The translations under genes and the position numbers were made by a program. Positions 31,230 to 57,558 of a stretch of 64,000 bases of DNA are shown here, piece by piece. Location of the stretch: NCBI RefSeq assembly GCF_000517625.1, contig NZ_CP007056.1:248001-312000 (forward strand), read 5' to 3'. How positions within the stretch are numbered: position 1 is the stretch's first letter; each line of letters begins with the position of its first letter. The stretch comes from Halostagnicola larsenii XH-48 (lineage in GTDB: Archaea > Halobacteriota > Halobacteria > Halobacteriales > Natrialbaceae). The notes under the pieces are model-generated. The model was not told the origin of the DNA. It worked only from the letters and a program-made list of their open reading frames with translations, and searched no databases.

Positions 31230-31249
31230 CTCTTGTCTCGAATCAGGTG

Positions 31250-32359
31250 ATGTCACGGGATGCGGAGCGTCAGGCGGACTGGGTATCACGACGAAAATAC
31301 CTGCTTGCATCTGCTGGTGTGGGAGCTGCTGGACTCGCCGGATGTCTCGGGAGCGGGAGTTCCGATTCCGGATCTTCGGACACGCTGAGCGCCGAAGGAT
31401 CCTCGACGGTGTACCCCATTTCGAACACGGGTAGTTCCTACTGGAACTCCAACTCGCCACCGGACGACGGCGAGTACTGGGGGTCTAGTGATGAGTCGAC
31501 GGTCCCAGGGTGGGATCAGATCGAGACTGACAAAAACATTGCCGACTACTTCGCAGGACTGTACGGCTTCGAGGCGACCGGCGAACGGTCGAATCCACCG
31601 TTCAGCACGCAGGTCGCACTGAGCCACTCCGGAACTGGCTGTGAGGCCGTCCGCGACGGCCTCGTCGATATCGGCAACTCCTCGGGACCGATCACCGCAG
31701 AGCTCGATATCAGCGAAGACGAACGAGACGAAAACTACGTCGACCACGTCGTCGGTCGCGACGGTCAGCCCGTCTTCGTCAGTCAGGAAATTTACGATAG
31801 CGGCGTCGAACAGCTCACCGGCGAAGAGATTCGGGGTATCTACCAGGGGGATATCTCCAACTGGAGCGAGGTCGGCGGCCCCGATCGAGAAATCTACGCG
31901 GTCGGTCGTGCCGAGGGATCGGGAACCGACACCACCTTCCGATTGAATATGCTCGGCGACGCTAAGGCGGAGATGGAAGTTGATACTCGCCTCGGGCAGA
32001 ACCAGCAGGTCCAGCAGACCCTGCAGGATAACGACAACGCGATTGGCTACATGGCACTGGCGTTCTCAGGGTCGGGCATTCAGGCAGTCGCCATCGACTT
32101 TGATGGAACTGTCTACGAGCCAGATCCCGACGCCGAGAATACAATCTTCGACGCCGAGTATCCGCTGAACCGCGACCTTCACATGTACACTCGTATCAAC
32201 GACGACACGCCCGACGGGACGGACAAGCGTGAAGCCGCGTTCCTCAATATGTTCCTGACCGACTTCGGCCAACAAGTGTTCGTCGAAGACGAGAACTACA
32301 TTACGTTGCCGACCGCCGATCTGGAAGCTGAGAGGGAAAAGCTCCCCGATCAGGAGTAG
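31250..32359 (+). CDS. pstS: Phosphate-binding lipoprotein PstS (first copy)
   Basis: This is the extracellular phosphate receptor of the Pst importer. A Tat signal (SRRKYLLASAGVG) and lipobox (LAGC) indicate a membrane-anchored lipoprotein, followed by a Gly/Ser linker. Phosphate-site segments are LSAEGSSTVYPIS near the N-terminus, RDGLVDIGNSSGPIT and VGRAEGSGTDTTF, as in PstS proteins. ATG 31250 is chosen over the preceding GTG at 31247 because it fits the leaderless promoter. It heads the run pstS-pstC-pstA-pstB-phoU-abrB/phoU, with 55 bp to pstC. Expression is probably induced by low phosphate. Confidence 0.95.
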   Translation: MSRDAERQADWVSRRKYLLASAGVGAAGLAGCLGSGSSDSGSSDTLSAEGSSTVYPISNTGSSYWNSNSPPDDGEYWGSSDESTVPGWDQIETDKNIADYFAGLYGFEATGERSNPPFSTQVALSHSGTGCEAVRDGLVDIGNSSGPITAELDISEDERDENYVDHVVGRDGQPVFVSQEIYDSGVEQLTGEEIRGIYQGDISNWSEVGGPDREIYAVGRAEGSGTDTTFRLNMLGDAKAEMEVDTRLGQNQQVQQTLQDNDNAIGYMALAFSGSGIQAVAIDFDGTVYEPDPDAENTIFDAEYPLNRDLHMYTRINDDTPDGTDKREAAFLNMFLTDFGQQVFVEDENYITLPTADLEAEREKLPDQE

Positions 32360-32414
32360 GCTGGCCAACCGTTCTGGCACGATTCACGGAAACATACACA
32401 AATATTATGACACT

Positions 32415-33551
32415 ATGAGTTCACAAACTGGTTTCGGGATTCGGAGTTGGAGGAAACACGTCGAGCAGCGGCTTCGCCAGACTCGAGAATTCGTCAACGA
32501 GACGGAGTCGGCCGCGCTCGCGACAGTCATCCTGTCGATTGGGTCGCTTCTGGCCGCATTCGGGGGCTTTCTGCTGGCGTCATCGTGGACGGCTATTCCC
32601 TTTGCCATGTTTCTCGTTTCGACTGGCTACGGTTGGGTCAGATACCAGGCCTTAATCGCACGGACCGTCACGTTCGCCATGACCAGCGTGACCATCGTCA
32701 CATTGGGACTGATCGTTGTATTCATCTTTTACGAGGCGATTCCGGTGTTCCAGTACGAGAGCGCGACCGTATTCGGCGTCTCTGTGCCTGGACTGGGGAT
32801 GTTCATCCAGACGCGGTGGGACGCGGTCACTGATCCCGTTCGCTACTCGCTGCTGCCGATGATCCACGGAACCGTGATGGTGACGGCCATTGCGACCCTC
32901 GTGGCGGCCCCGCTGGGAGTGGCAGCGGCGCTGTTCATCGCAGAGATTGCGCCGCCGACCGTTCGAGAACTCGTCAAACCCGGTATCGAGATACTAGCGG
33001 GCATTCCCTCGATCGTCTACGGTTTCATCGGCTTTACGGTAATTAACCCGTGGGCGAGCACCGAGTTCGCACTCAACGGCGGGTCGACGTATCTGTTCGT
33101 TGGGTTAGTTGTCGGACTGATGGCGCTACCGACGGTCGTCTCCGTCGCCGAAGACGCCCTGACAAGCGTTCCTAACTCGATGAAGGACGGCTCGCTCGCT
33201 CTCGGCGCAACTGACTGGCAGTCGATGACGTCAATTACGATTCCTGCGGCGTTTTCGGGTGTCTCGGCGGCCGTACTGCTCGGTATCGGCCGCGCCATCG
33301 GTGAGACGATGGCCGCGACGGTAATGCTCGCAGGAACCCAGGCAATTCCCGATCCGGTAACCAACGTCTTCTACGGCTATGAGACGCTAACGTCGCTGAT
33401 CGCTCGAGGCTACGGCCCTTCCACCGGCGTCCACGAAAGTGCACTCTTCGCCGCGGGCATCGTCCTGTTTGTGACCGTACTGTGTCTCAGTATCTTCTCA
33501 CAGTACATTGAAATGCGCATGCGCAAGCGCCTCGGAGGGGCCGAGTCATGA
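32415..33551 (+). CDS. pstC: Phosphate ABC permease PstC (first copy)
   Basis: This is one of two membrane permeases of the phosphate importer, 378 residues. About eight hydrophobic segments are visible, with the ABC-permease EAA loop represented by EDALTSVPNSMKDGSLALGATDWQS and the ensuing IGRAIGETMAATVMLAG. The first 60 residues form a soluble N-terminus and an added pair of helices, somewhat longer than bacterial PstC. The stop overlaps the pstA start by four bases (ATGA), showing translational coupling. Together with PstA it forms the channel driven by PstB. Confidence 0.95.
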   Translation: MSSQTGFGIRSWRKHVEQRLRQTREFVNETESAALATVILSIGSLLAAFGGFLLASSWTAIPFAMFLVSTGYGWVRYQALIARTVTFAMTSVTIVTLGLIVVFIFYEAIPVFQYESATVFGVSVPGLGMFIQTRWDAVTDPVRYSLLPMIHGTVMVTAIATLVAAPLGVAAALFIAEIAPPTVRELVKPGIEILAGIPSIVYGFIGFTVINPWASTEFALNGGSTYLFVGLVVGLMALPTVVSVAEDALTSVPNSMKDGSLALGATDWQSMTSITIPAAFSGVSAAVLLGIGRAIGETMAATVMLAGTQAIPDPVTNVFYGYETLTSLIARGYGPSTGVHESALFAAGIVLFVTVLCLSIFSQYIEMRMRKRLGGAES

Positions 33552-35116
33552 GCCGTGCGACCAAAACCGCACTCGTCCGGGAAGGCCGCAGCACCTATCA
33601 GGGTGCCGTCGCCGCTACGGTCGGTCTCTCCGGAGTAGCGTTTGTCGTCGGACTACTCACATTGGCAGATATCCTCGAAATCACCGCCCCCGTCGCAGGT
33701 GTCCAGCTATCGACAGCGCTGGGAATAGCGCTGCTTTCGCTCGGGATCGGAGTCATCGGCTTCGGTCTCGCCTCGCGTCTGGACTACGTTGATACCGGAC
33801 CCCAATCCAGCGCAGGTATTGTCGCCGCGGTCGCGTTCACTGGCGTCTGGTTCGCGATCGGCGCACTCGTCGCTGGCGCGGCTGGCCTCGGAACGGTCGG
33901 TTGGATGGCCGTCGGACTGGTCGCCGGGGCGGTCGCATTTGCTGTGACCGCGTTCCCCCGTGAAGATATCGGCTCGACGCTGCCGGCTGGAAGCGTGGCC
34001 GTCCTCGGCGGAGTAGCGCTCGCAACCGGCATCATCGGTCCCGGTTGGGAGTGGGTACTCGTCAGCTACAACGCGACCCTGTTCGGTGACACCACTGTCC
34101 CAGTCGTCGTGATATTCGCATCGCTTCTAACCGGCTGGTCGGCCGCCAAAGCCTACGGAGGATTTGGTTCCCGCGGGCGCAACATCGGCGCGTATGTCTT
34201 GATCTATTTGGTCGTCCTATCGATCCTCTCAGTCCTGGTTGGACTCGTTGGATTCGTCGTGGTCAAAGGGCTACCCGGCCTGTTCCACGGGTTCTCTGTC
34301 GGTGGCGGACAAGTGATCAGTTGGCCGTTCCTGACTAACGGCGCTTCGTTGATAGTCGACGTTGCAGGTGTGTTTCCCGCACTGGTCGGCACGATCTGGC
34401 TGGTCATCGGCGCCGTTCTTTTCGCAGTTCCGACCGGTGTCGGCGCTGCGGTCTTCCTCAGCGAGTATGCTGAGCAGGGTCGGTTCACTGGTGCCGTTGA
34501 AATAGCGACCAACGGTCTCTGGAGCACGCCCAGCATCGTCTTCGGACTCTTCGGCGCTGCCTTCCTCATTCCACGCTTTGGCAACCAGAAATCGCTGATC
34601 GCGGGCATGCTGACGCTCGGATTCATGCTACTGCCGTTAGTGCTGATCACGAGCCGCGAGGCGATTCTGGCAGTCCCCGACGAGTATCGCGACGCCAGTG
34701 CAGCGCTGGGCGTTTCGAAATGGAAAACGATCCGCAGCGTCGTCCTCCCCGCGGCGATCCCGGGAATTACGACGGGCGTTATCCTGGGGATCGGCCGCAT
34801 CGCCGGGGAAACGGCACCCATCCTGCTGACGACCGGCGGAGGCGTCTTACCGGGTAAGTCAGCCGCTCCAAGCGTTCTGGGCGGTTTCCAGCTAAGCTTC
34901 TCGCCCCCCTTCGTCAGCAATCCCTCGCTGCTCGAGGCGACAAGTGCGCTGCCCTACCAGTTGTATGCACTCATCACGGCGGGTCTCAGCGGGAACATCG
35001 AGGACCCCACGCAGTTCGCGTGGGGACTGGCACTGACGCTACTGCTCGTCGTGTTGGTGTTCTATGCGATCGGCATCGCGACGCGGTACTACTTCAGAAA
35101 GAAACTCCACCAATGA
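33548..35116 (+). CDS. pstA: Phosphate ABC permease PstA (first copy), N-terminally extended
   Basis: This second permease is 522 residues, against about 300 for typical PstA and 300 for the second copy in this window. The C-terminal 300 residues are the standard domain, with [24 protein letters not shown] as the EAA loop and [15 protein letters not shown] following. The N-terminal 220 residues contain about six additional TM segments (for example [31 protein letters not shown]) with no recognised function. Overlaps with pstC and pstB are four bases each, so the stoichiometry is tightly coupled. The extension may be a lineage trait of haloarchaea. Confidence 0.94.
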
Positions 35117-36033
35117 GTCAAACAGATCCTGCAAACGCGACTGACGTGACCAGCCGTACAGACGAACAGACAGTATCGACGACCGACGGCGAAACCGTCG
35201 AGGAAACGCAACCGGAGTGGACCAACTATGATGCCGACGGTGAAACGAAACTCGCAGTCGAAAATCTGGACGTCCACTACGGCGACGACCACGCACTGAA
35301 GGATGTCTCGATAGATATCCCCGAACAGAGCGTCACAGCACTTATCGGACCCTCCGGTTGTGGCAAGTCGACGTTCCTACGGTGTCTCAACCGGATGAAC
35401 GACCGCATCCGTAGCGCCAGCATCAACGGGACGGTCGAACTCGACGGCGAGGACATCTACCAGGACGGAGTCGATCTCGTCGAGTTACGCAAGCGCGTGG
35501 GTATGGTATTCCAGAGCCCGAACCCCTTCCCGAAATCGATCCGAGCGAACGTCTCCTACGGGCCGCGAAAACACGGTGACATCGAGACGGGATTACTCGC
35601 GCAACTGACCGGTCGCGCCGACCCCGAGAGAGAAGAGGAACTCGTCAGGCTCTCTCTCGAGCGAGCCGCGCTGTGGGAGGAGGTCAGCGATCGACTGGAA
35701 GACAACGCACTGGGTCTGTCAGGTGGCCAGCAACAGCGGCTCTGTATCGCCCGGTGTCTGGCAGTTGATCCCGAAGTTATTCTGATGGACGAGCCGGCCT
35801 CAGCGCTAGATCCGATCGCTACCTCGAAGATAGAGGACCTTATCGAGGATCTCGCACAAGACTATACGGTCGTTGTCGTCACCCATAGCATGCAACAGGC
35901 GGCCCGGGTCTCCGATCAGACGGCAGTCTTCCTAACCGGTGGCGAACTCGTCGAGTACGACGACACCGAGAAGATTTTCGAGAGTCCCGAAAGCCAGCGC
36001 GTTGAGGACTATATCAGCGGTAAATTCGGGTGA
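35113..36033 (+). CDS. pstB: Phosphate ABC ATPase PstB (first copy)
   Basis: This is the ATPase of the importer, 306 residues. The start at 35113 (MSQTDPAN) overlaps the pstA stop; an acidic Thr/Glu-rich N-terminal tail of about 45 residues precedes the domain. Motifs are Walker [20 protein letters not shown], the PstB-specific Q-loop [12 protein letters not shown], signature LSGGQQQRL, Walker [21 protein letters not shown] and the switch His in [15 protein letters not shown]. The C-terminal phrase [10 protein letters not shown] is the normal PstB end. A PhoU gene follows after five bases. Confidence 0.97.
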
Positions 36034-36038
36034 TACGC

Positions 36039-36707
36039 ATGGCCCGCGAGGAATACCGCGAATCGCTCACCGAGTTGCGTGCCAACGTCGAATCGATGGC
36101 CGAGACAGTACTGACCCAGCTCCGGCAAGCGCTGGTCGCGCTTGAAGACAGCAACGAGGCGTTGGCTCGCGAGGTGATCGATGGCGATGAAACCGTCAAC
36201 GAACGGTACCTCGACCTCGAGGGCGACTGTATAGACTTACTCGCCCTCGAACAGCCCGTCGCCTCTGACCTGCGATTCGTCGCCGCTTCATTCAAGATCC
36301 TCACCGACCTCGAACGGATCGGTGACCTGGCGACGAACCTCGCTAACTACGCGCTGGCCGATGTCTCGGAGGGGTTCTCCGGAGTCGATAGCTACGGGAT
36401 CGGCGAAGAAGTTCGCGACCAAGTGCAAGCGGCAATCGGCGCCTACGTCACGGACGACGCAGACGTCTGTCGGACGATTGCCAGCCGTGACGACGAAATC
36501 GATGCGCTGTGTCAGCGTGCCAGCGAGGCGGTCGTGCGCGAACTGATCGCACGCGAGTCCGATACGTGGAGCGTCGAGCAGGTATTGGACGATGTCTCGC
36601 GGGTACTGCTGACGATCCGCGACCTTGAGCGAATCGGTGACCACGCCGTCAATATCGCTGCACGTACTCACTACATGGTCGAGAACGATCCAGCATTGAT
36701 CTACTGA
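36039..36707 (+). CDS. phoU: Phosphate signalling protein PhoU
   Basis: This 222-residue all-helical protein is PhoU, the partner that links the Pst importer to signalling and limits phosphate uptake. Both three-helix repeats are seen, each with the metal-binding style Glu/Asp motif: DLERIGDLATNLANYA at about 90 and DLERIGDHAVNIAART near the C-terminus. ATG 36039 is chosen; a GTG at 36030 overlapping pstB would add three residues. In haloarchaea lacking a typical PhoR, PhoU probably acts on the importer or on the AbrB-PhoU protein encoded 43 bp downstream; that is inference. Confidence 0.95.
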   Translation: MAREEYRESLTELRANVESMAETVLTQLRQALVALEDSNEALAREVIDGDETVNERYLDLEGDCIDLLALEQPVASDLRFVAASFKILTDLERIGDLATNLANYALADVSEGFSGVDSYGIGEEVRDQVQAAIGAYVTDDADVCRTIASRDDEIDALCQRASEAVVRELIARESDTWSVEQVLDDVSRVLLTIRDLERIGDHAVNIAARTHYMVENDPALIY

Positions 36708-44035: not shown

Positions 44036-45187
44036 ATGACAGATGCCGACGCGATACCCGTGACCGTCGTCAGCGGCTACCTCGGCGCGGGCAAAACGAC
44101 GCTGCTCAATCACGTGCTTTCGAACCCGGGAGACCGACGGGTAGCAGTGATCGTCAACGATATGGGTGAGGTAAACATCGACGCGGAACTGATCGCGCGT
44201 GCAAACGACGAGGAGGGAATCGTCGACCTCTCGAACGGCTGTATCTGCTGTCAGTTGCAGGGGGATCTCCTTGAGGAGGCGGCGCGGCTGGCCGAGAGCC
44301 GCGCGTTCGACCACCTGCTGGTCGAGTCCTCGGGGATCAGCGAACCGATCCCCGTCGCGCAGGTGTTCACCGAGGGTACGGACGAGAGCGACGGAGATCC
44401 GACGGACCTGTTCCGACTGGACACGATGGTAACCGTGCTCGATACGTACGGCTTCTGGAAAGAGTTCGACGCCGGAGAGCGATTGCCCGGGGCCGCAGAA
44501 CCCGACGATGACCGCCCGCTGAGCGAGGTTCTCGTGGAGGGAATCGAGTTCTGCGACGTCCTGTTGTACAACAAGGTCGACATGGTTCCCGACGACGTAC
44601 TCGGGGAGATCGAGGCGGTCGTCACCCGGCTCCAGCCGCGGGCGAAGCAGATCCGGACGACCTACGCCGAGGTGGATCCGGACGTCGTCCTCGATACCGG
44701 CCGCTTCGACTTCGAGGCGGCGCGGCGCGCACAGGGGTGGAAACGTCACCTGCGTGGCGACGGACACGATCATGGTGACGGCGAGGGGGACGATCACGAC
44801 GAGGGCGGGGGGCACGATCACGGTGGCGAGGATCTGACGAGCGCCGCCGAGCGCCACGGCGTCTCGTCGTTCGTCTTCCGGTCGATTCGGCCGTTCCACC
44901 CCGAACGACTCGCGACGTGGCTCGAGGACTGGGACGGAGCGATCGTCCGGGCGAAAGGCGTCTGTCACGTCGCGGGCCGCGAGGAGGTGATCGGCGTCAG
45001 TCAGGCCGGTCCATCGGTCAGGGCCGGCCCGATCGGCGAGTGGCGCAAAGACGACGAGCGTCGCACCCAACTGGTGTTCATCGGTCGAGAGATGAACGAG
45101 GGGCGGATCCGCGAGGAACTCGAGGCGTGTACGGTCGACGACGACGAACCCGCTTACGAGCCGACGACCGATCCGTTTCCGCTGTAG
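44036..45187 (+). CDS. CobW/COG0523 family GTP-dependent metallochaperone
   Basis: This 383-residue G3E GTPase has the P-loop GYLGAGKTTLLNH (residues 14-26), switch and guanine motifs ending NKVD (about 182), and the metal-binding CICC (residues 69-72) in the usual position. A His/Asp/Gly-rich loop at about 238-265 (GHDHGDG, GHDHGG) probably binds more metal. The C-terminal CobW_C domain (PFHPERLATWLEDWDG, RTQLVFIGREMN) is complete. Such proteins deliver zinc or another divalent metal to client enzymes, often under zinc limitation. It is followed after 14 bp by a small Cys-containing gene on the opposite strand, and a zinc alcohol dehydrogenase is encoded nearby; a zinc-related cluster is plausible but not proven. 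Confidence 0.93.
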   Translation: MTDADAIPVTVVSGYLGAGKTTLLNHVLSNPGDRRVAVIVNDMGEVNIDAELIARANDEEGIVDLSNGCICCQLQGDLLEEAARLAESRAFDHLLVESSGISEPIPVAQVFTEGTDESDGDPTDLFRLDTMVTVLDTYGFWKEFDAGERLPGAAEPDDDRPLSEVLVEGIEFCDVLLYNKVDMVPDDVLGEIEAVVTRLQPRAKQIRTTYAEVDPDVVLDTGRFDFEAARRAQGWKRHLRGDGHDHGDGEGDDHDEGGGHDHGGEDLTSAAERHGVSSFVFRSIRPFHPERLATWLEDWDGAIVRAKGVCHVAGREEVIGVSQAGPSVRAGPIGEWRKDDERRTQLVFIGREMNEGRIREELEACTVDDDEPAYEPTTDPFPL

Positions 45188-45201
45188 TCACGACGCGCGG
45201 T

Positions 45202-45360
45202 CTACGATTCGAGGTCCTCGCGAAGCTCGTCCCAGGATTCGTGGAAACCGTGGGTCGACCGATCCGCCGTCCGGTCGGTGAGAGCGTCCTGATAGACGTC
45301 GTCGTACTCGAGCAGCCGGGTCCAGCCGTCGTGGCCGACGTAGCTGCAATACTGGCACAT
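45202..45360 (-). CDS. Small CxxC protein (52 residues)
   Basis: This short gene starts MCQYCSYVGHDGW and runs to a stop at 45202. Cys2 and Cys5, and later His residues in THGFHESW, could form a zinc site. The rest is acidic with codons typical of the region, which argues for coding. It is convergent with the CobW gene and divergent from the small zinc-finger gene at 45516, about 155 bp apart. No family is recognised; it may be a metal-binding accessory or a client of the chaperone. Confidence 0.5.
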   Translation of the reverse strand: MCQYCSYVGHDGWTRLLEYDDVYQDALTDRTADRSTHGFHESWDELREDLES

Positions 45361-45515
45361 GTCCTCGAGTACGTCGGTCGAAGCTATACCCGTTTTGGCG
45401 ACCGATCCGCGTCGGTCTTCACGACCGGTCGAGTGTGCCGGGCAGTACCGAGCTCCGTGGGCGGACGAGGTTGGAGACGAAAGAGTGACAACGGTTCAAC
45501 GGAGGTACCGTCTAC

Positions 45516-45677
45516 ATGAATCGAAAGAGCGGTTACGTTCGCAACGCGACCGAAACGATCGAACGGGCCTGCGAGCACTGCGAGTGGCACGCGGTCGGAG
45601 ACACCCACCCGGAGCTGGCCAAGCGGTATCAGGACCACCTCCGCGACGATCACCCCTCCGTGTGGCTGCGAAAATAA
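45516..45677 (+). CDS. Small C2H2-type zinc-finger protein (53 residues)
   Basis: This short gene encodes a protein with CEHCEWHAVGDTH in the middle and YQDHLRDDH near the end, a spacing of Cys-x2-Cys then His pairs that fits a compact zinc finger such as those abundant in haloarchaea. The N-terminus is basic (MNRKSGYVRN), which could aid nucleic-acid contact. It has a good ATG and haloarchaeal codon bias. It is convergent with the alcohol dehydrogenase gene, 55 bp away. Function is unknown; the neighbouring CobW gene suggests a zinc link. Confidence 0.65.
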   Translation: MNRKSGYVRNATETIERACEHCEWHAVGDTHPELAKRYQDHLRDDHPSVWLRK

Positions 45678-45732: not shown

Positions 45733-46899
45733 CTACGGCTCGAGCAGGACTTTGATGACGCCCTCCTCGCGCTCGTCGAACTTCTCGTACATCTCCGGCG
45801 CGCGCTCTAAGTCGACGCGTTGGGAGACGACCCAGCTGGGGTCGGCCCGGCCCTCGATGATCATATCCCGCAGTTCTCGGTTGTACTGCTTGACGTTACA
45901 CTGCCCGGTGCCCAGCTTTAGCCCCTTCTCGAATAGCTTGCCGAAGTCGATACCGAGCCGACCCTGCGCCGCCATCTCGTCTGGCGCGCCGGGATCCGAA
46001 GGAACGTACAGTCCCGGAATGCCGAGTTGCCCGGTCGGGCGAACCGTCTGGATGAGTTGGTTGAGCACGACCGCAGGATTCTCGCGGGCCGGGTCGTACG
46101 CCTCGTCGCCCGGATCCGTTTCGGGGTCGATCGCCTGATACCCCACCGCGTCGACGCCCTTGTCGACGCCGCCGCCGTGGACATCTTTGATCTGTTCGAC
46201 GGGATCGCTCTCCTCGAAGTTGATCGCGCGGGCGTCGCAGTGGTCTTCTGCCATCTCGAGGCGGCTCTCGACCCGGTCGACGACATATATCTCCGACGCA
46301 CCCTGGATCTTGGCGCTGTAGGCGGCCATCAGACCGACCGGGCCGGCCCCGAAAATCGCGATCGATTCGCCTGGCTCTAGGTTCGCGAGTCGCGTTCCGT
46401 GCCATCCAGTCGGGAAGATGTCGGCCAGAAGCGCGAAGGAATCCTCGTGTACGTCTCCCTCGGGGAGTTTGAGCGCGTTGAAGTCCGCGAACGGCACGCG
46501 CAGTTTCTCGGCCTGTCCGCCCTTGTACGGCCCCATCGCGACGTACCCGTACGCGCCGCCGGCGAAGCCTGGGTTGACGTTGGTGCAAAAGCCGGTGTAA
46601 CCGTTCTCACAGTTCCGGCAGAACCCGCAGGCGACGTTGAACGGCATCACGACCCTGTCGCCGACCTCGAGCGACGTGACGGCGTCGCCGACCTCGCTTA
46701 CGGTTCCCATGTTCTCGTGTCCGAAGACGATCCCGGGGTCGGCCGCGGTTCGGCCCTCGTACATGTGGAGATCCGAACCGCAGATCGCCGTGGTCGTTAT
46801 GTCGACGAGCACGTCGTTTTCGTGTTCAATCTCCGGTTCATCGACCGCTTCGACGGCTACGTCGTGCGGTCCCTGATAGACGACGGCGTCCATTGACAT
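45733..46899 (-). CDS. Zinc-dependent alcohol dehydrogenase (formaldehyde dehydrogenase-like)
   Basis: This 388-residue medium-chain dehydrogenase has the catalytic-zinc ligands Cys in TTTAICGSDLHMYEG and His-Glu in VFGHENMG. The structural-zinc motif is reduced to CGFCRNCENGYTGFC, with all four Cys present. The Rossmann motif is FGAGPVGLMAAYSAKIQGA and a long loop follows (GVDAVGYQAIDPETD), as in glutathione-independent formaldehyde dehydrogenases. ATG 46899 was chosen because the family starts MDAVVYQG; upstream in-frame codons do not look coding. It probably oxidises an aldehyde or alcohol with NAD(P). A neighbouring CobW-type chaperone could help load its zinc. Confidence 0.93.
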   Translation of the reverse strand: MSMDAVVYQGPHDVAVEAVDEPEIEHENDVLVDITTTAICGSDLHMYEGRTAADPGIVFGHENMGTVSEVGDAVTSLEVGDRVVMPFNVACGFCRNCENGYTGFCTNVNPGFAGGAYGYVAMGPYKGGQAEKLRVPFADFNALKLPEGDVHEDSFALLADIFPTGWHGTRLANLEPGESIAIFGAGPVGLMAAYSAKIQGASEIYVVDRVESRLEMAEDHCDARAINFEESDPVEQIKDVHGGGVDKGVDAVGYQAIDPETDPGDEAYDPARENPAVVLNQLIQTVRPTGQLGIPGLYVPSDPGAPDEMAAQGRLGIDFGKLFEKGLKLGTGQCNVKQYNRELRDMIIEGRADPSWVVSQRVDLERAPEMYEKFDEREEGVIKVLLEP

Positions 46900-48263: not shown

Positions 48264-49235
48264 ATGTCGAAAGACACCACTGGGCCGTCGGTTGGAATCA
48301 ACCGGCGGAAATTTTTGGCCGGCGCAAGTCTCGCGGGCGTGACGGGACTGTCCGGTTGTATTGGAACGTTTGCTGGCGCGGCAAAGGAGGTGAGAATTGC
48401 TGGAAGTTCGACCGTGTTCCCGATCACCTCGGTGATATCGTCATCGTTTTCCGAGGATCGAAACGACGTGACCGTCTCGATCAGTATGACGGGAACAGGG
48501 GGCGGCTTCTCGAACTTCTTTTGCCCCAACATGACGGACATCAACAATGCAAGCCGAGAAATAGCCGATGCCGACATAGAACAGTGCGCAGAAAACAGTG
48601 TTGAACCAGTCGAATTTACAATCGCAACTGATGCGTTGACGGTAGTCACCCATCCTGAAGCGGATTGGGTGGACTGCGTAACCGTCGAGGAACTGCGTGA
48701 ACTCTGGCGCGAAGGGGGTGCCCAGCGCTGGAGCGACGTTCGTGATGAGTGGCCCGACGAAGAGATCGAGTTTTTCGGCTCCGCGACGACCTCAGGAACA
48801 CATGAGTACTTCGTCGAGGCGATCATCGGCGAAGAGGAGACTCACCGAACGGACTACCGCGGCACCGAGCGCGACCGTTCTATCGTACAGGGTGTCCGAG
48901 GGAGCCAGTACTCCATCGGTTACTTCGGATTCGCCTACTACGACGAAAACCCCGACCAGATCAAGGCCCTCGGAATCGACGACGGCGACGGGTGCGTCGA
49001 GCCGTCACTCGAGGCGGCGATGGACGGCGAGTATACGCCGCTGTCGCGAAACCTGTACATCTACGTCGCCAAAGAATCGCTCGAGCGCCCCGAAGTTCAG
49101 GACTTCGTCCGATACTACCTCGAGCGCTCGTCGACAGATCTCGTCAACGAGGTCGGGTACGTCCCGGTCACCGAAGACGTCCGCGACGAGAACCTCGAGA
49201 AACTCGACAGAAATATCGAGGAGGTGACGGCCTGA
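48264..49235 (+). CDS. pstS: Phosphate-binding lipoprotein PstS (second copy)
   Basis: This is the substrate receptor of a second phosphate importer, 323 residues, with Tat signal [13 protein letters not shown] and a lipobox ending in SGC. Phosphate-site segments are [26 protein letters not shown] and [13 protein letters not shown]. It is clearly diverged from the first copy, which has a different N-terminal loop. The start at 48264 fits a leaderless promoter; TTG at 48240 and GTG at 48261 are in frame but less likely. Its stop overlaps the pstC start by one base (TGATG). Such duplicate systems may differ in affinity or in the phosphorus species bound. Confidence 0.93.
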
Positions 49236-50152
49236 TGAGCGCACCGGATATCACACACGACAACGCTCGCTCCGTTCGCGGAGTCGCGTTCAAGTACGTC
49301 TTTGCAGTGTGTGCGTTCCTCTCGATTCTGACGACCGTTGCGATCGTCCTGACGCTTTTATACGATGCCGTCGACTTCTTCGCGGTCGTTTCGCCACTCG
49401 AGTTCTTCTCGGGAACGGAATGGACACCCTCGAACGATCTTTACGGCGTCTGGCCGCTGATCTCCGGAACGGTTACGATTACGATCGGCTCGGCGTTGAT
49501 CGCCCTCCCGATCGGACTTCTAACGGCAATCTATCTGAGCGAATACGCCTCGGATCGACGGCGGGCGTACCTCAAACCCGCACTCGAGGTGCTTGCGGGC
49601 GTTCCGACGGTCGTCTACGGATACTTCGCACTAGTATACATCACGCCCGTGTTCGATCGGTTCCTCCCGATCGGGACGTTCAACGCGCTCTCGGCCTCGA
49701 TCATGGTCGGCATCATGATCATTCCGATGGTCTCCTCGATCAGCGAGGACGCGATGAGTTCGGTACCCGATTCGTTGCGCCAAGCGAGTTACGGCCTCGG
49801 CGCGACGAAGTTCACCGTTTCAACGTCGGTCGTCGTTCCGGCGGCGCTTTCGGGGATCCTCTCCTCGTACATTCTGGCGCTCTCTCGAGCCATCGGCGAG
49901 ACGATGATCGTGGCGGTCGCTGCAGGGCAGACCCCACGTATGGCCGAACTGACCGACCCCGCCGGAATGTTCCTCGAGTCGGTGCAGACGATGACCGCCG
50001 CGATGGTGCAGATCGGAGCCAGCGACGTCGTCGGCCAGTCGACTCAGTACAAGAGCCTCTTCGCGGTGGGGCTGACGCTGTTCGTGATCACGTTCGCAAT
50101 GAATCTATTCAGCGAGTGGGTATCCTCGCGCTACAGGGAGGTGTATCGCTGA
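49235..50152 (+). CDS. pstC: Phosphate ABC permease PstC (second copy)
   Basis: This 305-residue permease has six TM segments, with EAA loop [24 protein letters not shown] and [18 protein letters not shown] after it. It is close to the usual bacterial length, unlike the first copy. It overlaps pstS and pstA by one base each (TGATG at both junctions). Confidence 0.95.
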
Positions 50153-51051
50153 TGTCGACCGATACCGACCAGACCGCCACCGGCGGATCTAGCTTCGGTC
50201 GCGTAAGCCGAACCAAAGACGTCGCGTTCCGCTGGCTCACACTCGGAGCGGCACTGTTCGGCATCCTCGCACTCGCAGTGTTGCTGGCCAACGTCGTCGT
50301 CGATGCCGTTGGCTGGTTAAACTGGGGCTTTCTCACCGGGATGCCGAGCTTCAGTAACCCGTATCAGGCGGGATTCTTCCCCGCGATCGTCGGCTCGATC
50401 GCGCTAATGGCGCTGATCGCACTGATCACGTTCCCACTCGGCGTCGGCGCGGCGATCTACCTCGAGGAGTATGCAAGCGACGGCTACCTCACGCGGTTCA
50501 TCCAACTCAATATCGCCAACCTCGCGGGCGTCCCGTCGGTCGTCTATGGACTGCTGGGACTCGGCCTGTTCGTGGGCCTGTTGAACATCGGATTCGGGAC
50601 GTTGCTCGTTGCTGGCTTTACGGTCGGATTGCTCATCCTGCCGATCATCATTATTTCGGCTCAGGAAGCGATCCGTTCCGTGCCCGACTCCCAACGACAG
50701 GCCAGCTACGGGATGGGGGCGACGAAGTGGCAGACGATCCGCAACGTCGTCTTGCCACGAGCGATGCCCGGCATCCTCACGGGAACGATCCTCGCGCTCG
50801 GCCGCGCGATCGGCGAGACCGCACCGCTGATCATGATCGGTGCGCCGACGGCAGTCTTCGGCGTTCCGAACAGCCTCCTCAGTAAGATCAGTGCAATGCC
50901 CATGCAGATCTACACCTGGGCGGACCAACCCGAAATGGAGTTCCAGTACGGCGTCGTCGCGGCTGGCGTGGTGACGCTGCTGGTCATCCTCCTGTCGATC
51001 AACTCAATTGCGATTCTCATTCGGAACCGGTACCAACAGAGGGATTCCTAA
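50152..51051 (+). CDS. pstA: Phosphate ABC permease PstA (second copy)
   Basis: This 299-residue permease has a short hydrophilic N-terminus ([12 protein letters not shown]) and six TM segments. The EAA loop is [25 protein letters not shown], followed by [17 protein letters not shown]. Length is standard, lacking the extra six helices of the first PstA. It overlaps pstB by one base (TAATG). Confidence 0.95.
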
Positions 51052-51929
51052 TGCCACAAGATTCAGCCACTTCCACGGAAAACGAACCGCTCAACGGTCA
51101 GCAAGCCACACCGACGCCGGGCACCGACGGCCTCGGCGACGGATCGAACGTATCGAACGAGGCCACCGGCACCGACCGAGTACTCCTCGAGGCACGCGAC
51201 CTCGATGTCTACTACGGCGATGATCAAGCGCTCAACGGGATCAACCTGCCAATTCCGGAAAAGAAGGTGACGGCGCTCATCGGCCCCTCGGGCTGTGGAA
51301 AGTCGACGTTCCTGCGATCGATCAACCGCATGAACGACCTGATCGATATCTGCCGCGTCGACGGCGAGTTCGAGTTCGGCGGCAAGAACGTCTATGATGA
51401 CGATGTCGATCCGGTTGCACTCCGTCGCAAAATTGGGATGGTATTCCAGAAGCCGAATCCGTTTCCCAAGTCGATCTACGACAACGTCGCCTACGGCCTG
51501 CGGGTGCAGGGTGAGGACGACGGCAACCTAGACGACCAGGTCCAACAGGCCTTAGAACGCGCCGCGCTGTGGGACGAAGTAAAGGATCAACTTGATTCCT
51601 CGGGGCTCGACCTCTCGGGCGGACAACAACAGCGACTGTGCATCGCACGCGCGATTGCCCCGGACCCGGAGGTTATTTTGATGGACGAGCCGGCAAGCGC
51701 ACTCGACCCGGTTGCAACCTCGAAAATCGAAGATCTGATTACCGACCTCTCCGAGCAGTACACGGTCGTCATCGTCACCCACAACATGCAACAGGCCGCG
51801 CGCATCTCCGATCGCACGGCCGTCTTCCTCACGGGCGGCAATCTCGTTGAGTTCGACGAAACCTCGAAGATCTTCGAGAACCCCGAAAGCGACCGCGTCG
51901 AAGATTACATCACCGGCAAGTTCGGGTAG
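51051..51929 (+). CDS. pstB: Phosphate ABC ATPase PstB (second copy)
   Basis: This 292-residue ATPase has an acidic/Thr-rich N-terminal tail of about 45 residues, Walker [21 protein letters not shown]-loop [15 protein letters not shown], signature [16 protein letters not shown], Walker [15 protein letters not shown] and switch His in [15 protein letters not shown], ending [10 protein letters not shown]. It is close to the first PstB over the core. No phoU follows this operon; a UspA gene starts 95 bp later, so signalling may use PhoU proteins encoded elsewhere. Confidence 0.97.
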
Positions 51930-55785: not shown

Positions 55786-57558
55786 ATGGAACGCCAGTCG
55801 GGCATCGTTCGCGTCGACCTCTCCGCACGGTCGGTGACAAGCGAGCCAGTTCCCGACTCGTGGCGCAGGAAATACGTCGGTGGCAAAGGACTGGGCGCAC
55901 GCTACCTTTTCGACGAACTCGAGGCGGGAACCGACCCGTTGAGCGAGAGAAACGTCCTGCTGTTTCTGATCGGCCCGCTCACCGGCTACCTGCCGAGCGA
56001 GCAGCGCTACGTCGTGGTGACGAAATCGCCTCAGACGGGGACCTTCCTCGACTCCTACGCCGGTGGGTCGATAGCCGGACGACTGGCCGGATCGCTCGGC
56101 GATCACGCGGGGATTCTCGTAACCGGCCGCGCGTCCGAACCGGTCACGCTCTCGGTGACGGGCGGCGACGTCACGATCGAATCCAGCTCGGAGCTGTGGG
56201 GACTCGACGCCGCCGAAGTCGACGAGCGATTTCCCGACGCGGCGACCGCTTGTATCGGACCCGCCGGCGAACACGGCGTGACCTACGCCACGATCGCCTC
56301 GGACGGCGGCGACCACCACGCGGGTCGGGGTGGTGCCGGCGCCGTGATGGGCACAAAACGACTCAAAGCGATCGTCGCTCGCGATGGCCCGCCAGAACTT
56401 ACCGATCGGCTTCGAGTGCTCCGAGCAAAGTACGAACGGGCATACGCGGAAAACGAAACCGGGCGGTGGCAAGCAACGAGCGAAACGCTCGAGACGGTCG
56501 ACTTCGCGAACGAGGTCGGCGTCCTCCCAACGCACGGCTGGCAGGCGAGCCGATTCGACGGTGCGGACGAGATCGGTATCTCGGCAGCGCGGGCGGCCGC
56601 CCACGAACGCGAACGGGCCGACGACGCCGTTCCGGGCGGCTTTCGCGTCGACGGCGACGAGGGCGAGAGCGTTCCCCGCGGATCGACGCCGATTTCGCTC
56701 GGCGCGGGACTCGGCATCGACGACTTCGACGCCGTCGCGACGCTGGGATGGATCTGCGATCGACTCGCACTCGACGTTATCTCGAGTGGGAACGCCGTCG
56801 CGTGGGCAATTCGGGCGAGTAAGGAGGGACACATCGATCGAGACCTCGAGTTCGGCGACGATGCGGCTGCTCGGGACCTCATCGAAGAAATCGCAACGCG
56901 GTCGACGGAACTGGGAGCGGTGCTCGCCGACGGCGTGGAAGCGGCCGCCGACGAGTACGGTGGCGACGATTTGATCCCGACGGTCAAAGGAATGGATCTT
57001 CCGTCGTACGATCCGCGCGGCGCGACGGCGATGGCACTCGCATACGCGACGAGCGATCGCGGTGCGTGTCACCGACGCGCCCGGCCAGTCGAAGCCGAAG
57101 CGCTCGCCCCGAGAGTCTGGACCACCGACGAACGCGTCGATGCGGTTGTCACCGAACAGAACAGACGCGCAGTGCTCTGGAGTCTCGTCGCCGACGACTT
57201 CCTCGGAGACTCGCTCGCCGAAGACCTCGGGGTCGAATGGCTCGAGGCGGTCGGCCGCGAGTACGAACGCGAAGAGCTCGCGCGAGTCGGCAAGCGGATC
57301 TGGACCCTCGTTCGACTGTTCAACGTTCGTGAGGGGTTCGACCGCGCCGACGACGAACTGCCCGCGGTGGTGACCGAACCACCCGAATCCGGACGACACG
57401 ACGATTACGCGGTCGATCCGGCCGAGTTCGAGGCGATGCTCGAGTCGTACTACGAGTATCGGGGGTGGGATCAGGAAGGGCGACCAACCGAATCGATGGT
57501 TCGACGGCTCGGTATTGACGGGGATCTCGAAGACGTTGCGGTTTCAGGTCCTGAGTGA
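55786..57558 (+). CDS. Aldehyde ferredoxin oxidoreductase family protein lacking cluster cysteines
   Basis: This 590-residue protein is a homologue of tungstopterin aldehyde ferredoxin oxidoreductases. The N-terminal cofactor domain is intact in outline: KYVGGKGLGARYLFDEL, GPLTGYLPSEQRYVVVTKSP, DSYAGGSIAGRL and HHAGRGGAGAVMGTKRLKAI. C-terminal landmarks LGWICDRLALD and YDPRGATAMALAYATSDRGACH are also present. However, the CxxCxxxC motif and fourth Cys that bind the [4Fe-4S] cluster are absent. The protein has only three Cys (156, 324 and 428), and the sequence after TSDRGACH reads AVLWSLVADDF where a Cys is expected. The ATG at 55786 fits a TATA-like box near 55755. Either electron transfer differs from the known enzymes or the protein is inactive. 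Confidence 0.85.
   Translation: MERQSGIVRVDLSARSVTSEPVPDSWRRKYVGGKGLGARYLFDELEAGTDPLSERNVLLFLIGPLTGYLPSEQRYVVVTKSPQTGTFLDSYAGGSIAGRLAGSLGDHAGILVTGRASEPVTLSVTGGDVTIESSSELWGLDAAEVDERFPDAATACIGPAGEHGVTYATIASDGGDHHAGRGGAGAVMGTKRLKAIVARDGPPELTDRLRVLRAKYERAYAENETGRWQATSETLETVDFANEVGVLPTHGWQASRFDGADEIGISAARAAAHERERADDAVPGGFRVDGDEGESVPRGSTPISLGAGLGIDDFDAVATLGWICDRLALDVISSGNAVAWAIRASKEGHIDRDLEFGDDAAARDLIEEIATRSTELGAVLADGVEAAADEYGGDDLIPTVKGMDLPSYDPRGATAMALAYATSDRGACHRRARPVEAEALAPRVWTTDERVDAVVTEQNRRAVLWSLVADDFLGDSLAEDLGVEWLEAVGREYEREELARVGKRIWTLVRLFNVREGFDRADDELPAVVTEPPESGRHDDYAVDPAEFEAMLESYYEYRGWDQEGRPTESMVRRLGIDGDLEDVAVSGPE

Follow-up and report, generated by a model that had tools for sequence, protein, structure and literature searches.

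The 64,000-nucleotide stretch of Halostagnicola larsenii XH-48 analysed here (contig NZ_CP007056.1, positions 248,001 to 312,000; hereafter the window) contains a small cluster of genes encoding a CobW-family GTPase (CobW), a 52-residue protein (A52), a formaldehyde dehydrogenase-like zinc enzyme (FdhA) and a predicted 53-residue zinc-finger protein (B53). The cluster was tentatively read, with somewhat less than even confidence, as a formaldehyde dehydrogenase maturation module in which CobW would metallate FdhA and A52 would act as a dedicated micro-protein co-chaperone or adaptor. This was the simplest reading because a metal GTPase adjoins a zinc enzyme together with a small, obligate Cys-x-Tyr-Cys protein. 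That A52 is almost always found with the other two genes in haloarchaea suggests a kit dedicated to activating this enzyme, as opposed to a general zinc-shortage response. The genes, their conservation, linkage and co-occurrence, the intact zinc ligands and the conserved promoter of A52 were observed directly; from these sequences we infer the identity of the metal, the direction of its transfer and all of the interactions.

CobW (44036..45187, forward strand, 383 amino acids) and the open reading frame of A52 (45202..45360, reverse strand) are convergent and separated stop to stop by 14 nucleotides (45188-45201). B53 (45516..45677, forward strand) is divergent from A52, with a start-to-start spacing of 155 nucleotides, and is followed by FdhA on the reverse strand (45733..46899), whose end is at 45733 and whose start at 46899 was chosen as fitting its relatives, giving 388 amino acids. 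The initial annotation had described a CobW protein with a His-rich loop, a 52-residue CxxC gene on the opposite strand 14 nucleotides away and a divergent 53-residue zinc-finger gene, and these coordinates were confirmed. Its statement that the small proteins were unlisted was in general untrue, as a homologue of A52 is annotated as a "hypothetical protein" on nine matching plasmid records.

By sequence, CobW is a sound COG0523 protein with predicted GTP hydrolysis and metal binding. It matched PF02492 at 169.8 bits (cut-off 20.7) and CobW_C at 89.2 bits (cut-off 22), and contains the P-loop GYLGAGKT, a CICC motif (C69, C71, C72) and, between the GTPase and CobW_C domains, a loop rich in His and Asp. 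The CxCC motif was kept in 143/143 distinct homologues. The best NCBIfam score, to ZigA (NF038288; 349.5 bits), was under the equivalog cut-off of 600. Seven PF02492 matches were found in the genome of the window, four of them matching this CobW at E ≤ 1e-50, and in a tree the A52-associated CobW proteins were separate from the paralogues of the same genomes.

FdhA is a zinc medium-chain dehydrogenase, predicted from profile and structure-database matches to oxidise formaldehyde. Its best PDB match was the formaldehyde dehydrogenase 1kol (E = 2.2e-83), and its best NCBIfam match, TIGR02819, scored 342.3 bits, under the equivalog cut-off of 636.95. Ligands were tallied in 142 distinct proteins, leaving out the rows that did not cover a position. 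The catalytic zinc ligands C40 (130/130), H61 (134/134) and D160 (138/138) were intact throughout, as were the structural ligands C91, C94 and C97 (each 135/135) and C105 (136/136).

A52 is a real, conserved gene family and not a chance open reading frame, because its homologues adjoin CobW in 71 of 80 related loci. Ten positions were invariant in 124/124 distinct aligned proteins (C2, Y4, C5, W13, L16, Y19, D20, Y23, G38 and F39). The median pairwise dN/dS (ratio of nonsynonymous to synonymous substitution rates) was 0.26 over 1331 pairs, with 54% below 0.3; these values were noisy and widely spread, with a maximum of 6.7. Searches of Pfam and NCBIfam with the A52 of the window, present in one copy in its genome, returned nothing at E ≤ 0.1. 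For 41 members of the family the best E values were 0.015 (Pfam) and 0.014 (NCBIfam), each in at most two members and none convincing, and a profile search against PDB chains gave no match at E ≤ 1, HypA included. An AlphaFold2 model built from 41 sequences consisted of two helices with a loose Cys-x-Tyr-Cys end; its mean predicted local distance difference test (pLDDT) score of 65.6 was too poor for a fold search. In a phylum-level sample, A52 was matched in 14 of 294 genomes, all of one and the same order.

The start of A52 was examined through its promoter. A Cys codon directly follows the ATG or GTG start in 140/140 distinct listed A52 genes, and many loci also have further in-frame start codons upstream. 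A profile of 140 distinct upstream regions (effective number 58.3) showed three elements in common, an AAA resembling a transcription factor B recognition element (BRE) at -35 to -33 (45393..45395 on the reverse strand of the window; 0.51, 0.49 and 0.80 bits of information), a TATA-box-like TAT core at -28 to -26 (45386..45388, reverse strand; 0.56, 0.39 and 0.32 bits) and a TA at -11/-10 (45370..45371, reverse strand; 0.45 and 0.52 bits). We take this spacing to be the haloarchaeal BRE/TATA/-10 pattern of leaderless transcripts, and the protein therefore most likely begins with Met-Cys.

The association of the three genes was surveyed in 391 genomes of the class Halobacteria. A52 was found in 159 and FdhA in 170, the latter at a threshold of E ≤ 1e-150 with a wide gap to the next best value (3.1e-84). 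The CobW clade was present in 155 genomes by cut-off and in three more where it was confirmed next to A52 (G059, G116 and G316), that is, in 158 of the 159 A52 genomes. The sets were nested: 155/155 CobW-clade genomes have A52, and 159/159 A52 genomes have FdhA. The initial annotation had noted a zinc alcohol dehydrogenase as the next gene; it does adjoin the cluster, but its presence in every A52 genome makes it more than a mere neighbour.

Related CobW loci numbered 173, and gene order was examined in the 80 best (L008-L087). CobW and A52 were convergent in all 71 loci with both, and 65 of these pairs were at most 136 nucleotides apart. Five of the nine loci without an adjoining A52 (L044, L046, L049, L050 and L052) have it about 5.7-5.9 kb from CobW, as measured on L158, L159, L161, L160 and L170, whose contigs were equated with theirs on the basis of identical length; the other four (L083, L084, L086 and L087) contain CobW paralogues at 47-49% identity without A52. 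FdhA and A52 were on the same strand in 62/62 loci, and in 9 of the 71 CobW-A52 loci FdhA lay outside the sequenced piece considered. Where B53 is missing, FdhA can lie 13-136 nucleotides upstream of A52 in an operon-like arrangement. In a second set of 40 regions, overlapping the first, FdhA and A52 occurred together in 30 and on the same strand in 28 of them.

That A52 follows FdhA so closely on the same strand in some lineages, that it has an N-terminal CxxC and that it co-occurs obligately with CobW would also fit A52 as a metallated client of CobW, a small zinc protein (perhaps a dimeric Cys4 site) acting as a subunit or activator of FdhA. We judged this rather improbable. The family keeps just two Cys throughout and no His, and bacterial FdhA homologues such as 1kol are not known to need such a subunit. 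With this ligand set A52 alone is not a complete zinc finger, which speaks against the zinc buffer or client proposed in the initial annotation.

Distance correlations over 62 loci, computed without a species-tree control, placed A52 between the other two proteins. The partial correlation was 0.51 for A52 and CobW given FdhA, 0.50 for A52 and FdhA given CobW, and 0.25 for CobW and FdhA given A52; because both A52 values exceed the last, A52 may act as a bridge. Genome G371 provided a single informative case. It encodes FdhA, B53 and a 47-residue A52-like protein (L182:5642-5782) of the form MCQFC...W..LLEYDDKY, in which an acidic C-terminus replaces GF...W..L. It has no COG0523 protein; its best PF02492 match has no CxCC and by motif presumably resembles UreG. 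This one case hints at a division of A52 into an N-terminal half that goes with FdhA and a C-terminal part that goes with CobW.

In the proposed maturation module, the CxCC and His-rich sites of CobW would bind a metal, most likely Zn(II), and CobW would load the catalytic and structural zinc sites of FdhA with GTP turnover. Because A52 starts with Met-Cys-x-Tyr-Cys, removal of the methionine, which is predicted, would leave an N-terminal amine and two thiolates able to carry or accept metal. The segments GW..LL.YD..YQ and GF...W..L would dock on CobW and/or FdhA, and B53 would be an optional accessory zinc finger. A more specific proposal, possible though doubtful, would make A52 the first micro-protein co-chaperone dedicated to a COG0523 GTPase. 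Once the methionine is removed, its Cys-x-Tyr-Cys would form a hook that takes metal from CobW and hands it to FdhA, the N-terminal half acting on FdhA while the GF...W..L tail acts on CobW.

The gene surroundings of A52, read on six of the nine plasmid records that carry it, point to one-carbon metabolism. On several plasmids the CobW, A52 and FdhA genes (the trio) are located in betaine/sarcosine-demethylation islands that also encode BCCT transporters, demethylases of the Rieske and FAD types and, often, formate dehydrogenase. In Halocatena salina, Rieske oxygenase and SRPBCC genes are followed by FdhA, A52 and CobW and then by NuoF-like, 2Fe-2S and formate dehydrogenase genes. On pHTUR02 and a Natrinema plasmid, A52 has formate dehydrogenase on one side and Rid/SHMT genes on the other, and genes for BCCT transporters and FAD oxidoreductases are close by. 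The trio of the Haloarcula marismortui plasmid pNG700, where A52 is WP_004966007.1, has formate dehydrogenase and a gene of the creatininase family in its vicinity, in Haladaptatus CobW-A52 adjoin a BCCT transporter, an FAD oxidoreductase and an N-methyltryptophan oxidase, and on a Halarchaeum plasmid the trio lies amid unrelated genes. Betaine and sarcosine demethylation pathways release formaldehyde; this would be oxidised by FdhA, with the final step by formate dehydrogenase. Of the 159 A52 genomes, 91 have a relative of a dimethylglycine oxidase-like enzyme (DMGO), against 39 of the 232 others, an association and not a rule. Genes of this type adjoin BCCT transporters in four haloarchaea described in PMC3102087.

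Three islands (L195, on pHTUR02, L197 and L210) appear to encode a full route from the methyl groups of glycine betaine or sarcosine by way of formaldehyde and formate (Rieske oxygenase, DMGO-like enzyme, FdhA and NuoF-FdhF) and are a candidate for haloarchaeal betaine use. Separately, the DMGO-like genes of G256, G263, G247, G390, G364 and G360 each contain a single in-frame stop codon.

This metabolic setting bears on a different role for A52. An N-terminal cysteine reacts with formaldehyde to form a thiazolidine, and A52, once its methionine is removed, could capture formaldehyde in this way for sensing, buffering or handing to FdhA, with CobW being a separate metal helper of FdhA. Cys directly follows the start in all 124 aligned proteins, the promoter position would place the transcript start at that start codon, and A52 occurs only in FdhA genomes. 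Six genomes carry a second A52 copy away from CobW and FdhA, and those read adjoin SHMT, dimethylglycine oxidase-like and formate dehydrogenase genes, as in G086, where a DMGO-like enzyme and SHMT are the neighbours of the second copy. In G371, likewise, the A52-like protein accompanies FdhA where COG0523 is lacking. However, A52 is present in every CobW-clade genome and absent from 11 FdhA genomes without that CobW, and neither the second conserved Cys nor the helical part would be explained. A formaldehyde-reactive A52 was regarded as unlikely, though it is the main alternative.

Several observations weigh against the maturation module. The N-terminal Cys of A52 could be equally fit for formaldehyde chemistry, the A52 model was poor, and the DMGO relative was not found at 1e-150 in the window's own genome. 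The CobW-clade cut-off, between 1.2e-110 and 1.6e-107, was placed in a narrow gap and set after the list of A52 genomes was known. The same-strand arrangement of FdhA and A52 was broken in L146 and L147, and in G054, G249, G255 and G310 FdhA is elsewhere in the genome, not adjacent. G371 has a shortened A52-like protein with FdhA and no COG0523 partner. In 11 of the 170 FdhA genomes both A52 and this CobW are missing; eight of these enzymes form one separate clade (64-68% identity) and the others are from G229 (85%), G337 (81%) and G353 (73%). The helpers are thus not absolutely needed. Finally, joint gain and loss inflates the co-occurrence because the four genes form one physical cluster, and joint inheritance accounts for part of it. 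Fisher p-values for the associations take no account of relatedness or physical linkage and were given no weight.

Of the 80 related loci, 54 contain B53, an optional member of the cluster; this counts against the zinc buffer or client proposed in the initial annotation. Among four trio genomes tested, it was absent genome-wide from G055, G101 and G153 and present in G067, and it adjoins FdhA in G229 and G371, both without this CobW. Nor is B53 simply a partner of FdhA, because it is also missing from 10 of the 12 FdhA genomes that do not have this CobW; that candidate role was further weakened by a higher distance correlation of B53 with CobW (0.82) than with FdhA (0.65) over 52 loci. The ligands C19, C22, H41 and H46 (Cys-x2-Cys ... 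His-x4-His) were invariant in 23 homologues, and the predicted structure was beta-beta-alpha with a mean pLDDT of 75.6; on these ligands and the model, B53 is a predicted C2H2-type finger. A Foldseek search with the model gave no match at E ≤ 0.001, and C2H2 fingers appeared only at E 4.5 and worse. HypA ranked first in this search, with an E value of 3.2 and a probability of 0.06, and was treated as noise.

Such a finger, encoded divergently from A52, raises the possibility that one or both of A52 and B53 bind DNA and regulate the fdhA/cobW locus, like Brz and other small haloarchaeal zinc-finger proteins. In Halobacterium, the gene of a small regulator of the zinc-finger type is described as lying next to its target (PMC2253796). 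This explanation was considered distinctly improbable, as A52 is acidic and has no zinc-finger ligand set, and the second A52 copies are away from both fdhA and cobW.

The initial annotation had proposed small zinc proteins as buffers or clients of a chaperone working under zinc limitation. Both small genes are indeed real and conserved, and the link between CobW and A52 is very strong, but their role in zinc shortage was unsupported. In its favour, a lipoprotein of a zinc transporter is described as rising in a haloarchaeal biofilm together with Hlac_1837, a zinc formaldehyde dehydrogenase that may or may not correspond to FdhA (PMC5118699). In the flanks inspected, by contrast, no zinc uptake or regulator gene was recognised; the linkage is to formaldehyde metabolism, and A52 tracks FdhA. 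The CobW-A52 intervals and surroundings of L158, L173, L062, L077, L078, L118 and L164, examined as a possible zinc-limitation island, contained GDPD, DnaJ-Fer2, chorismate-binding, SHMT, DMGO-like and other genes and no named zinc system, and the candidate was rejected. Two transporters in the inspected flanks have no assigned substrate (Peripla_BP_2 in L118 and an ABC operon in L158). A zinc-starvation response was accordingly judged very improbable.

Other genes near the cluster were recorded. In Halorubrum-type loci CobW is adjoined by a 218-residue fusion of DnaJ and 2Fe-2S ferredoxin (L158:9052-9705). The window encodes a tungsten-type aldehyde ferredoxin oxidoreductase (AFOR) at 55786-57555 (AFOR_N 213 bits, AFOR_C 319.8 bits), and pHTUR02 and the Natrinema plasmid likewise have AFOR-like genes in their betaine islands. 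Two sets of genes that resemble phosphate-uptake systems (substrate-binding proteins, ABC ATPase, PhoU-like) flank the cluster within 20 kb, at 31247-36707 and 48267-51926; the Pfam check here covered PBP_like_2 (48267), the ABC ATPase (51051) and a PhoU/MazE-type regulator (57618).

If the more specific co-chaperone proposal is correct, haloarchaea would have a mobile gene set, complete in itself, that metallates an enzyme of formaldehyde detoxification. Most COG0523 GTPases are without a known client (PMC9164220), and archaea are described as removing formaldehyde by an alternative route yet to be identified (PMC7278568). Here a COG0523 protein has a single clear candidate client and an obligate small partner in culturable hosts, which makes both questions directly testable, and a functional context would be provided for a previously uncharacterised 52-residue family present in 159 of 391 genomes of the class. 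No description of a link between COG0523/CobW and formaldehyde dehydrogenase in haloarchaea was found in the literature covered, to which the novelty is limited. A 2009 survey reported COG0523 in only 8 of 44 archaeal genomes, and the words "dehydrogenase" and "formaldehyde" were not found in its text (PMC2770081).

Compared with known systems, CobW resembles the COG0523 G3E GTPases ZigA, ZagA, Nha3, YjiA and ZNG1 in PF02492, CobW_C, the P-loop, CxCC and the His-rich loop, but differs in its linkage to a formaldehyde dehydrogenase-like enzyme and a micro-protein and in scoring under the ZigA equivalog cut-off. FdhA shares catalytic and structural zinc ligands with the glutathione-independent formaldehyde dehydrogenases (1kol, TIGR02819), whereas its score of 342 bits is below the cut-off of 637 and it is encoded with CobW and A52. 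B53 shares the Cys-His part of DUF1059 (PF06348), of which it would be a distant relative: the window member scored 19.9 bits over that part, under the gathering cut-off of 21.1, and 5 of the 23 homologues matched at E ≤ 0.01. The C(P)XCG zinc micro-proteins of Haloferax volcanii are also haloarchaeal, shorter than 70 amino acids and bear Cys pairs (PMC11241148); unlike them, A52 has a single CxxC (CQYC) without Gly, and B53 has one CxxC (CEHC) and two His. HypA and UreE are small metal proteins paired with G3E GTPases. The HypA-HypB and UreE-UreG pairs offer a functional analogy to A52 and CobW, a small protein and a G3E GTPase serving a metalloenzyme (for G3E roles, PMC9164220), although A52 matches no solved chain in sequence and the metal and the client differ. 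The cluster is composed of known parts in a new combination.
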